Below, piece by piece: positions 6,451-15,333 of a stretch of 21,830 nt of DNA. Below the pieces are notes generated by a model. The model made no database searches. It was given only the letters and a program-made list of their open reading frames with translations, and was not told the DNA's origin. Position 1 is the stretch's first letter. Each line of letters opens with the position of its first letter. The translations under genes were made by a program, and so were the position numbers. Source of the stretch: a virus; the IMG/VR virus record IMGVR_UViG_3300032282_003033, positions 1 through 21,830 of that record; one strand, given 5' to 3'.

Positions 6451-6462
6451 ATCGGTTATATT
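6434..6462 (+). promoter_or_regulatory. Sigma70-like promoter TTGACG-17-TATATT
   Basis: TTGACG at 6434-6439 and TATATT at 6457-6462 have 17-base spacing, with GGCCAC following as in other promoters here. The predicted leader to 6533 is about 64 bases and holds a small hairpin (GGAAC-TTA-GTTCC, 6483-6495). Confidence 0.7.
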
Positions 6463-10620: not shown

Positions 10621-10790
10621 ACTACTTGTGCCTTGTTGATGGTCTTTTAGAATACGCCAGCACTTCTGAAAGTAGTTTTGCTCACTATCAGTTGGTGTAT
10701 GCCGAAGAACACCAAGATGCTGATGTTCAGTATCTTACTCTGACTGATGAGGAGTATGATGCTCTCTTTCCACCAGAAGAAGATGAATAA
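10617..10790 (+). CDS. Tiny acidic protein of unknown function (57 aa)
   Basis: ATGA overlap with the previous stop and a clean frame to TAA. The sequence MNYLCLVDGLLEYASTSESS leads into a strongly acidic end (LTDEEYDALFPPEEDE). It is the last gene before the first homing-endonuclease cassette. Confidence 0.55.
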   Translation: MNYLCLVDGLLEYASTSESSFAHYQLVYAEEHQDADVQYLTLTDEEYDALFPPEEDE

Positions 10791-10822
10791 ATAATAATAC
10801 CTGTAAGTCGCATTATAGGTGG

Positions 10823-10846
10823 AAGAGGTGCTTTCGGGCACCTTTT
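10823..10846 (+). terminator. Intrinsic terminator inside inverted repeat 1
   Basis: AGGTGC (10826-10831) pairs with GCACCT (10838-10843), extendable by AAG/TTT with one G-U pair, and TTTT follows. It should stop early transcripts coming from the upstream operon. Confidence 0.75.
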
Positions 10847-10850
10847 CTTG

Positions 10851-10858
10851 TATAAATA
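10851..10858 (+). promoter_or_regulatory. T4-type late promoter TATAAATA, cassette 1
   Basis: Perfect match to the T4 gp55-dependent late promoter. The expected start, about 6 bases downstream, falls at the beginning of the right repeat arm, after the left arm has been excluded. Confidence 0.8.
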
Positions 10859-10881
10859 GTATTGCGACTTACAGAGTAGAA

Positions 10882-11571
10882 ATGAACTATCTAAAAGTTT
10901 ATTGTAATCTCATCAGGAAAGCAGAGAACCGAATTCCTCCTGATGGATATACAGAAAAACACCATATCTTTCCAGTAAGCATTTATGGAGAGAATAATAA
11001 AATTATAGTTTTGACCGCAAGAGAACATTATATTGCTCACGCATTACTTGAAAAAATTTGTATTAAAAGATATGGATTGAACGACCAAAAAACCATAAAG
11101 ATGGTTTATGCTCACACAAGTATGAAAGCAAATGGAAATTATGTAAATTCTTATCTTTATGAAAGTGCGAGGATAAGAAGAAAAATGTTGATGAGTGGTA
11201 AAAATAATCCTATGTATGGTATTTCAAGATACAAGTGTTCTAATCCTTGGTATGGTAAAAAACATAGTGAAAGAACAAGAATGATGATGAAGGAAAGATG
11301 GAGATTGAGATTAGAAAATGGTTTTGTTTCTCACTCTATTGGTAGAAAAATGAGTGAGGAACAAATACTTTCTATGAGTAAGGAGTTTTGTGTAGTTAGT
11401 CCTGATGGTGAAGTGGTAAGAGGAATAAATCAAAGTGAATTTTGTAGAAAAAATAATTTAGACCAAGGTGGATTTAATAGAATGATAAATGGAAAAAGCA
11501 AAACCTGTAAAGGATGGACACTTTACAAACTGGTACAGGAGGCACCAAAACCTTGTACGGATGCTGTATAA
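10882..11571 (+). CDS. HNH homing endonuclease with NUMOD DNA-binding domains
   Basis: I chose ATG 10882 because it lies downstream of the late promoter and gives the usual start MNYLKVYCNLI. The 229-aa protein has an HNH nuclease domain with KHHIFPVSIYG (His27, His28) and VLTAREHYIAHALL (His49, His53), a typical beta-beta-alpha metal arrangement. NUMOD3-type motifs follow (SGKNNPMYG, NPWYGKKHSERTRMMM). The C-terminal IENR1/NUMOD1-like helix-turn-helix is INQSEFCRKNNLDQGGFNRM with KGWTLY. It is a free-standing homing endonuclease that should cut cognate DNA lacking the insertion and spread by repair. It is more AT-rich and Lys-rich than nearby genes, consistent with mobility. Its stop codon lies inside the TATAAT box of the next gene. 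Confidence 0.88.
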   Translation: MNYLKVYCNLIRKAENRIPPDGYTEKHHIFPVSIYGENNKIIVLTAREHYIAHALLEKICIKRYGLNDQKTIKMVYAHTSMKANGNYVNSYLYESARIRRKMLMSGKNNPMYGISRYKCSNPWYGKKHSERTRMMMKERWRLRLENGFVSHSIGRKMSEEQILSMSKEFCVVSPDGEVVRGINQSEFCRKNNLDQGGFNRMINGKSKTCKGWTLYKLVQEAPKPCTDAV

Positions 11572-14623: not shown

Positions 14624-14830
14624 ATGACTCTTGCTCGCACTGGATCTGACAATCTTACCACAGAAGAATGGAATGAACTGGTAGCATTAAAAGACGCAAT
14701 CAGTTATGCTCCACAGACAGTCTCAGCAGATAAAATGGAAAAGTTTGCAGAACTTATGGTGCGATCTTTAGAGGGAAAATGTGATCCTCCTCCGCCGAAG
14801 AATTGGCGTGGATCAGCATTGAGTGACTAA
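14624..14830 (+). CDS. Small protein of unknown function (68 aa)
   Basis: A strong GGAGG lies 4 bases before ATG. The product has two helices (TTEEWNELVALKDAISYA and ADKMEKFAELMVRSLEG) and a Pro-rich end (CDPPPPKNWRG). It is the last gene before the second endonuclease-type cassette, whose left repeat arm begins 5 bases after its stop. Confidence 0.6.
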   Translation: MTLARTGSDNLTTEEWNELVALKDAISYAPQTVSADKMEKFAELMVRSLEGKCDPPPPKNWRGSALSD

Positions 14831-14865
14831 ATACTAACGCTTATGTGTCGCAGCTAAGCAAATCT

Positions 14866-14889
14866 GGGGAGCAGAAATGCTCCTCTTTT
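14866..14889 (+). terminator. Intrinsic terminator inside inverted repeat 2
   Basis: GGAGCA (14868-14873) pairs with TGCTCC (14878-14883) around a GAAA tetraloop, extended by G-U and G-C pairs, then TTTT. It should stop RNA entering from the upstream operon. Confidence 0.75.
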
Positions 14890-14891
14890 AA

Positions 14892-14899
14892 TATAAATA
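14892..14899 (+). promoter_or_regulatory. T4-type late promoter TATAAATA, cassette 2
   Basis: Perfect late-promoter match, followed by four bases and TGCGAC as in cassette 1. RNA started here lacks the left repeat arm, leaving the start codon of the gene at 14923 free. Confidence 0.8.
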
Positions 14900-14922
14900 A
14901 CTCTGCGACACATAAAGCAGTT

Positions 14923-15333
14923 ATGGAAGACTTATTCGCATCTCTGAAAGATGTTGTAGTTCCTGATGATTGTTGGCAACCATTTGAGGATGGTTGGAAA
15001 GGTGATTGGATTTATTTCCAAAAAGGTCACATTCCGTGGAATAAAGGAAAGAAAGGAACTTGCCCTCTTCATCAAAAAGAAATAAACAGACAAATGATGA
15101 AGAAAAGATATGAAAATGGATTAAATGTTAGCGGTGCAAATAATCCGAGAGCAAAAACTTGGAGAGTAGTTTATAATGATGGTAGAGAACTCATCATCAA
15201 ATCTATTCATGATTGGGCAATAATGCGAGGTTATAGTAAATCTGGGATTTATAATCTTCGCACAAAGAAATGGAAAAGATACCGAGATCTTGTGACGGTT
15301 GAAGAAGTGTCACAAGCCCCCTTGTCTTTGTGA
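14923..15333 (+). CDS. NUMOD-type homing-endonuclease-like protein without visible nuclease domain
   Basis: ATG 14923 is chosen because it follows the late promoter; an upstream in-frame extension would read through the hairpin. The 136-aa protein starts with LKDVVVPDDCWQPFEDGW, then HIPWNKGKKGTCPLH (NUMOD3-like, about 36-50). It ends with a DNA-binding-like HTH region, SGANNPRAKTWRVVY and KSIHDWAIMRGYSKSGIYNL with KWKRYRDL. No HNH or GIY-YIG catalytic motif is seen. It may be a truncated homing endonuclease, or a DNA-binding partner or repressor. The last codons (SQAPLSL) are encoded by the palindrome of the downstream promoter cassette, and TGA lies beyond its -35. Confidence 0.7.
   Translation: MEDLFASLKDVVVPDDCWQPFEDGWKGDWIYFQKGHIPWNKGKKGTCPLHQKEINRQMMKKRYENGLNVSGANNPRAKTWRVVYNDGRELIIKSIHDWAIMRGYSKSGIYNLRTKKWKRYRDLVTVEEVSQAPLSL

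Follow-up and report, generated by a model that had tools for sequence, protein, structure and literature searches.

The 21.8-kb virus record analysed here, referred to throughout as the window, has its relatives among T4-like Synechococcus phages and contains two cassettes with the same order of parts, each placed directly before a gene that we annotate as a homing endonuclease (Table 1). The gene behind cassette 1 matches PF07460 (E 2.6e-8) and PHROG 655, a homing endonuclease family (E 3.9e-33). The ORF behind cassette 2, which has relatives at 21 IMG/VR loci, matches PHROG 1891 (HNH endonuclease) with E 4e-4 over 31 residues and has no Pfam match; here as elsewhere in this study, some gene labels rest on motif similarity because family matches are weak for several small proteins. 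The TATAAATA element before the endonuclease gene of cassette 2 can be set beside the late motif reported for phage S-PM2, NATAAATA (PMC2984593). In cassette 2, the TAA at 14828-14830 within CTAAATA doubles as the stop codon of the preceding ORF (14624-14830).

Table 1. Parts of the two cassettes and the genes that follow them, in window coordinates.
Feature	Position	Strand	Remarks
Cassette 1, up to its gene	10786-10881	+	same order as cassette 2
Cassette 1 AATAAATA, predicted left promoter	10786..10793	+	TAA also ends the preceding ORF
Cassette 1 predicted antisense sRNA, 52 nt	10799..10850	+	hairpin 10799-10820, terminator 10825-10849
Cassette 1 TATAAATA, predicted late promoter	10851..10858	+	
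Cassette 1 right arm and mRNA leader	10863..10881	+	TGCGACTTACAG, then AGTAGAA
Mob-like HNH homing endonuclease with NUMOD3 motif	10882..11571	+	Pfam, PHROG
Cassette 2, whole	14827-14922	+	
Cassette 2 CTAAATA, predicted late-type promoter of the left RNA (sRNA)	14827..14833	+	
Cassette 2 predicted antisense sRNA, ~53 nt	14839..14891	+	+1 is the 6th base after TAAATA
Cassette 2 5' hairpin GCTTATGTGTCGCAGCTAAGC	14839..14859	+	GCTTA...TAAGC; five bases after CTAAATA
Cassette 2 left arm TTATGTGTCGCAG	14841..14853	+	antisense to the mRNA leader
Cassette 2 intrinsic-terminator-like hairpin	14866..14889	+	GGGGAGCA-GAAA-TGCTCCTC plus TTTT
Cassette 2 TATAAATA, predicted T4-type late promoter of the endonuclease gene	14892..14899	+	
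Cassette 2 right arm CTGCGACACATAA	14903..14915	+	
Cassette 2 predicted mRNA leader GCGACACATAAAGCAGTT, sRNA target	14905..14922	+	+1 = 14905; five bases after TATAAATA
Small putative homing endonuclease, NUMOD/HNH-like, 136 aa	14923..15333	+	ATG at 14923; PHROG match

The original prediction had described cassette 2 as a left arm, a terminator with a GAAA loop, TATAAATA, four bases and TGCGAC, with 50 nt in the loop of cassette 1 and 49 nt in that of cassette 2, and we find parts, order and both loop lengths exactly so. It also extended the stem to the A of the ATG (TAAC/GTTA); this extension is real, and we gave it no weight because it is short, lies behind bulges, and has a left side that precedes the predicted +1 of the left RNA. 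The window contains nine N[AC]TAAATA sites, and strong upstream complementarity is found only at the two TATAAATA sites of the cassettes (-22.7 and -22.0 kcal/mol; -12.5 at the next best site), while a 12-bp perfect arm at such a place was met in none of 20,000 random contexts. RNA reading through either cassette folds far better than its shuffles (z -5.9 and -7.1). The left RNA by itself folds at -25.3 kcal/mol in cassette 1 (z -5.9) and at -19.4 kcal/mol in cassette 2 (z -3.5), where it forms a 5' hairpin plus the terminator and holds the TCGC of the antisense sequence in the 5' hairpin loop. The cognate duplexes between left RNA and leader reach -20.6 kcal/mol (cassette 1) and -21.1 kcal/mol (cassette 2), and the two cross pairings -9.6 and -11.9 kcal/mol. 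No clear Shine-Dalgarno sequence was found in the mRNA leader of cassette 2, and with an E-value limit of 1 none of the covariance models of Rfam 15 matched at either cassette.

Two further features of the window deserve mention in their own right. A repeated unit, TATMWTGGCCA, is present at 6457, 7752, 15345, 18544, 19533, 20905 and 21369, with nine matches at up to one mismatch compared with 1.3 expected in the window; several copies are embedded in a 43-66-nt repeat together with CACAAGCCCCCTTGTG and GTTGAGAGGAA, before short ORFs, and the whole resembles a terminator joined to an early promoter of the sigma-70 type. This repeat accounts for the short 'distant' matches obtained in many cyanophages. 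Among the structural or tail genes lies a collagen-like low-complexity ORF of 306 aa rich in Gly, Ala and Gln (1862-2782).

Relatives of both window genes were taken from IMG/VR and their upstream regions read. The architecture is constant, and the arms are swapped wholesale (TAAGTC|GCA, TTGGTACT|GCA, TTTGGACG|GCA, ATTTGACC|GCA), each replaced arm remaining complementary to the bases 3' of TATAAATA. Within these loci an upstream 8-nt complement accompanies 153 of 430 TATAAATA sites, against 8 of 430 for a downstream control of the same length. A second scan yielded 188 anchored type I cassettes with 68 target seeds, from IMG/VR contigs as well as cultured Kyanoviridae (S-SRM01, B23, S-B68); the idea of a general element is upheld. 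The cognate duplexes of 60 non-redundant cassettes average -21.5 kcal/mol (weakest -16.6), whereas non-cognate combinations average -8.6 kcal/mol and permutations -8.8 (sd 0.5). Perfect pairing from +1 to +7 in this set of 60 stems partly from the search with exact 8-mers; the onset of pairing, the 5' hairpin and the covariation are not consequences of that search.

For counting, the arms were set in register by their predicted +1. The set of 88 distinct arm pairs scores 0.797 for covariation, compared with 0.201 (sd 0.016) after shuffling and 0.11-0.18 when the arms are slid, and all nine pairs vary on both sides; about 11 sequences shifted by one column by MAFFT stayed in the set, which lowers the observed covariation. 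RNAalifold run on the MAFFT alignment of the cassettes found no pair, because the diverged arms are out of register there. The duplexes contain G-U pairs (51 of 933), also in otherwise typical cassettes (L242, L252 and L288). As to the orthogonality of arms within genomes, which action in trans might favour, the numbers (1/53 within, 2.6% across) are too small. The two window cassettes are thus not recent copies lacking covariation, given 68 different target seeds and the strength of the signal, and the proposal that selection acts on RNA pairing holds over the 88 pairs; we regard selection on leader pairing, in one mode or another, as close to certain.

The genes downstream of type I cassettes comprise HNH (MNYLK), four GIY-YIG-like groups and NUMOD-type genes, almost all of them homing endonucleases of several unrelated families. 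In an unbiased scan that used only the terminator end and late promoter (CCTTTTCTNNTATAAATA) before any gene, 107 sites were recovered, 62 of them with perfect 8-nt arms and nearly all of these before endonuclease ORFs. Roughly a third of the other 45, by reading the list, also precede endonucleases and form wobble duplexes in the range of about -19 to -25 kcal/mol, and at one further site the gene is gone. Where the same terminator and late promoter stand before tail genes, arms are lacking (about -6 to -10 kcal/mol). The arms therefore occur almost only before homing-endonuclease ORFs, and the linkage to homing genes that had been anticipated is seen in a scan blind to gene identity.

Cultured phages carry the element too. 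Phage S-SRM01, from a Singapore reservoir, whose whole genome was scanned, has seven cassettes, all with different pairing; its cognate duplexes range from -18 to -28 kcal/mol and cross-duplexes are mostly weaker than -14 kcal/mol. A cassette also precedes a GIY-YIG gene in B23, S-B68, S-CREM2 and Sf-CH5, the last being of a second type described below, and none was present at the sites checked in S-N03, ACG-2014f, RN05-S and the T6 mob-like gene.

The second type, type II, has the scaffold GGGCAGCA-antisense-TGCGTAAGTCCC with a late-type promoter after it. It is unrelated to type I, is found before genes of the same kinds and repeats the same logic. Among 70 distinct scaffold matches 54 have the promoter, and in all 54 the duplex with the leader lies between -18 and -30 kcal/mol; the 16 others look mostly like chance matches. 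A clear TAAATA lies upstream in only 14 of 50, so that a promoter of its own is uncertain for type II. Its RNA (GGGCAGCAA...TTGCGTAAGTCCC) has an internal loop that is asymmetric, carries the antisense sequence in the apical loop and forms a distinct conserved RNA motif before homing genes, examples being L333:27776 (S-SRM01), L336:817 (Sf-CH5), L252:2033 and about 50 others.

Some left units stand without a gene. Three contigs (L479:4075, L486:12101 and L519:3233) keep the left unit at one shared site behind an Hsp20 gene, where promoter and target are gone and little of the endonuclease gene remains; in L484 the terminator is missing as well, and L470 and L529 are broken copies. We considered whether such halves are independent sRNAs and rejected this in view of the shared Hsp20 site, the apparent tail of a lost endonuclease and the broken copies. 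They look like decayed elements, and the cassette appears to decay along with its gene; the left unit at the Hsp20 site could be a remnant of simple decay or could have been kept to silence incoming elements.

The left unit lies upstream of the endonuclease gene on the same strand. A TAAATA is found 11-15 nt upstream of the left 8-mer in 110 of 118 matches, 60 of them at 13 nt; seven matches lack it, three or four of them belonging to type II and the remainder seemingly spurious. Since S-RIM50 and DSL-LC02, whose sites for cassette 1 are empty, have no TAAATA there, this motif belongs to the element. At T4 late promoters, transcription starts at the 6th base after TAAATA. With both start sites predicted from this spacing, the +1 of the left RNA falls at the left arm and that of the mRNA at the right arm, and the 8-nt match begins 3-5 nt past the motif in most matches; arm pairing is still present at mRNA position -1 in 53 of 60 cassettes and at -2 in only 15. 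Taken alone, the left RNA folds into a 5' hairpin plus a terminator hairpin in 60 of 60 cases, whereas shuffling its first 28 nt leaves a 5' hairpin in a mean of 28.7 of 60 (maximum 38), and a U-rich tail is matched in 53 of 60 left units. The stem of the 5' hairpin varies in sequence with its pairing kept, the left arm pairing also with its own inner partner. Covarying complementarity to the 5' region of the mRNA and a compact, terminated RNA with an antisense loop are thus both present.

We think it rather probable that the left half is an antisense sRNA of about 52 nt acting mainly in trans on the 5' end of the endonuclease mRNA. The cassette would then be the portable control region carried by the free-standing homing-endonuclease genes of T4-like cyanophages. 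Its left TAAATA promoter would drive transcription from the left arm to the terminator, yielding an sRNA of about 50-60 nt whose antisense sequence is exposed in a small hairpin loop and next to it. Transcripts from the inner TATAAATA promoter would begin with the right arm and constitute the endonuclease mRNA, with a leader of 16-25 nt. The sRNA would pair with the first 14-17 nt or so of this leader, ending 2-8 nt before the AUG, and would block translation initiation, so that the nuclease would be made at a low level. RNA reading past the terminator would hold both arms and sequester its own leader in cis. It is from the anatomy of the cassettes that we infer the existence of the sRNA, the activity of both promoters and translational repression by pairing, and the trans action of the predicted sRNA is likewise proposed on anatomical grounds.

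The most serious alternative is that the element is solely a cis switch, as had originally been suggested. In the manner of T4 I-TevI, segB and Aeh1 mobE, a hairpin in early or middle read-through RNA would hide the translation start, a late promoter in the loop would make mRNA free of the left arm, and the terminator would just lower read-through. The late promoter does lie between the arms in all cassettes, the same arrangement is established for T4-type homing genes (PMC2988022; PMC3014915), and read-through RNA folds as a cis hairpin with the leader paired in 60 of 60 cassettes, so that cis control alone would explain the covariation; the z scores of the two window cassettes also speak for it. 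The cis hairpin of the original suggestion is thus quite possible. The picture is incomplete, however, because a cis switch predicts neither a second promoter-like element at a fixed distance before the left arm, nor a separate left-arm hairpin that competes with the long stem, nor a terminator between the arms, nor pairing that stops at the predicted mRNA start; moreover, the AUG is unpaired in all 60 read-through folds and no clear Shine-Dalgarno sequence is hidden. The four features fit a free antisense sRNA better, and we consider a cis switch acting by itself possible and on the whole unlikely. Both modes may act, as the read-through RNA would form the long hairpin in cis.

An inverted repeat read at the DNA level is very improbable. 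The arms would be operators through which the endonuclease represses its own promoter, as I-TevI does by binding to an operator that overlies its late promoter (PMC2988022), and the right arm is indeed directly behind the promoter. Yet HNH and GIY-YIG proteins that are not related have the same arms before their genes: 21 of the 68 target seeds are common to two or more ORF families, and a single HNH family has 21 seeds, which argues that it is pairing that is kept and not a DNA site of the protein. The G-U pairs and the pairing of the left arm with its inner partner also speak against operators, which we reject as the main role. Least probable of all, and likewise rejected as the main role, is a left unit that mainly insulates neighbouring genes by supplying a terminator and a stop codon, with arm pairing a minor by-product: the terminator hairpins are strong and the TAA of TAAATAA provides the upstream stop codon in 28 of 60 cassettes, but insulation needs no arms that covary at every position, and the armless tail genes have the same terminator and late promoter.

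The general idea is already known, since for I-TevI, segB and mobE it is established that a late promoter lies within a hairpin which conceals the start of the gene (PMC2988022; PMC3014915). As in T4 I-TevI, I-TevII, I-TevIII and segB and Aeh1 mobE, the genes concerned encode homing endonucleases and the late mRNA would be free of the left arm. In those systems a hairpin covers the translation start region of longer RNAs (PMC2988022); in the cassettes it may do so in part, the leader being paired and the AUG free in the read-through folds. Unlike those systems, the cassette has a terminator between its arms and a left arm with its own promoter-like element and hairpin, covers no consensus Shine-Dalgarno sequence, and is common to unrelated endonuclease families. 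It would work at least like the T4 hairpins, and probably as an antisense-RNA pair.

In IS10/Tn10, the loop of a short structured RNA, RNA-OUT, pairs with the 5' end of the mRNA for the mobility enzyme (RNA-IN). The cassette resembles this in that a mobile element's short structured RNA would pair through its loop with the 5' end of the enzyme mRNA; RNA-OUT, however, is made from the opposite strand of the same DNA, whereas the antisense RNA of the cassette would come from a separate upstream copy on the same strand, so that both arms must co-evolve. In tisB/istR-1 and shoB/ohsC, a small RNA transcribed from an adjacent promoter is complementary to the leader of a potentially harmful gene. The cassette is like these type I toxin-antitoxin systems in setting an adjacent small RNA against the leader of a potentially harmful gene, and unlike them in its product, a homing endonuclease, its tandem order and its phage late-type promoters. 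Small RNAs and a structured leader also control a mobile-element enzyme in ISPpu9 (Asr9/Ssr9), although there Asr9, an antisense RNA, promotes expression, and its pairing partner Ssr9 is located downstream of tnp (PMC8450116). CfrI of S-PM2 is likewise a cyanophage RNA tied to a homing-endonuclease gene, but it is about 225 nt long and antisense through the gene and psbA, while the RNA of the cassette would be about 52 nt, on the same strand and upstream (PMC2984593).

No description of the cassette was found in a search that covered the open-access literature. Control of T4 homing genes is, to our knowledge, exerted in cis or via proteins. A review of T4 states that no small trans-acting regulatory RNA from this phage had been functionally characterised (PMC3014915, 2010). 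Since the cassette is found on unrelated HNH and GIY-YIG genes and in two unrelated scaffolds, RNA-guarded homing genes may be general in these phages; that it is a portable two-promoter module with sRNA and target in tandem on one strand, the sRNA loop co-evolving with the opening bases of the nuclease mRNA, and that such guarding is general, we hold to be an evenly balanced proposition. It is in any case a simple, frequent and testable module in many cyanophages, cultured ones included. If the proposed action in trans is true, it would explain how a phage can tolerate many nuclease genes at once, as S-SRM01 does with its seven cassettes, and would provide ready-made pairs of sRNA and target. 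It would also raise the question of whether, in a mixed infection, the RNA of a resident element might silence an incoming one.
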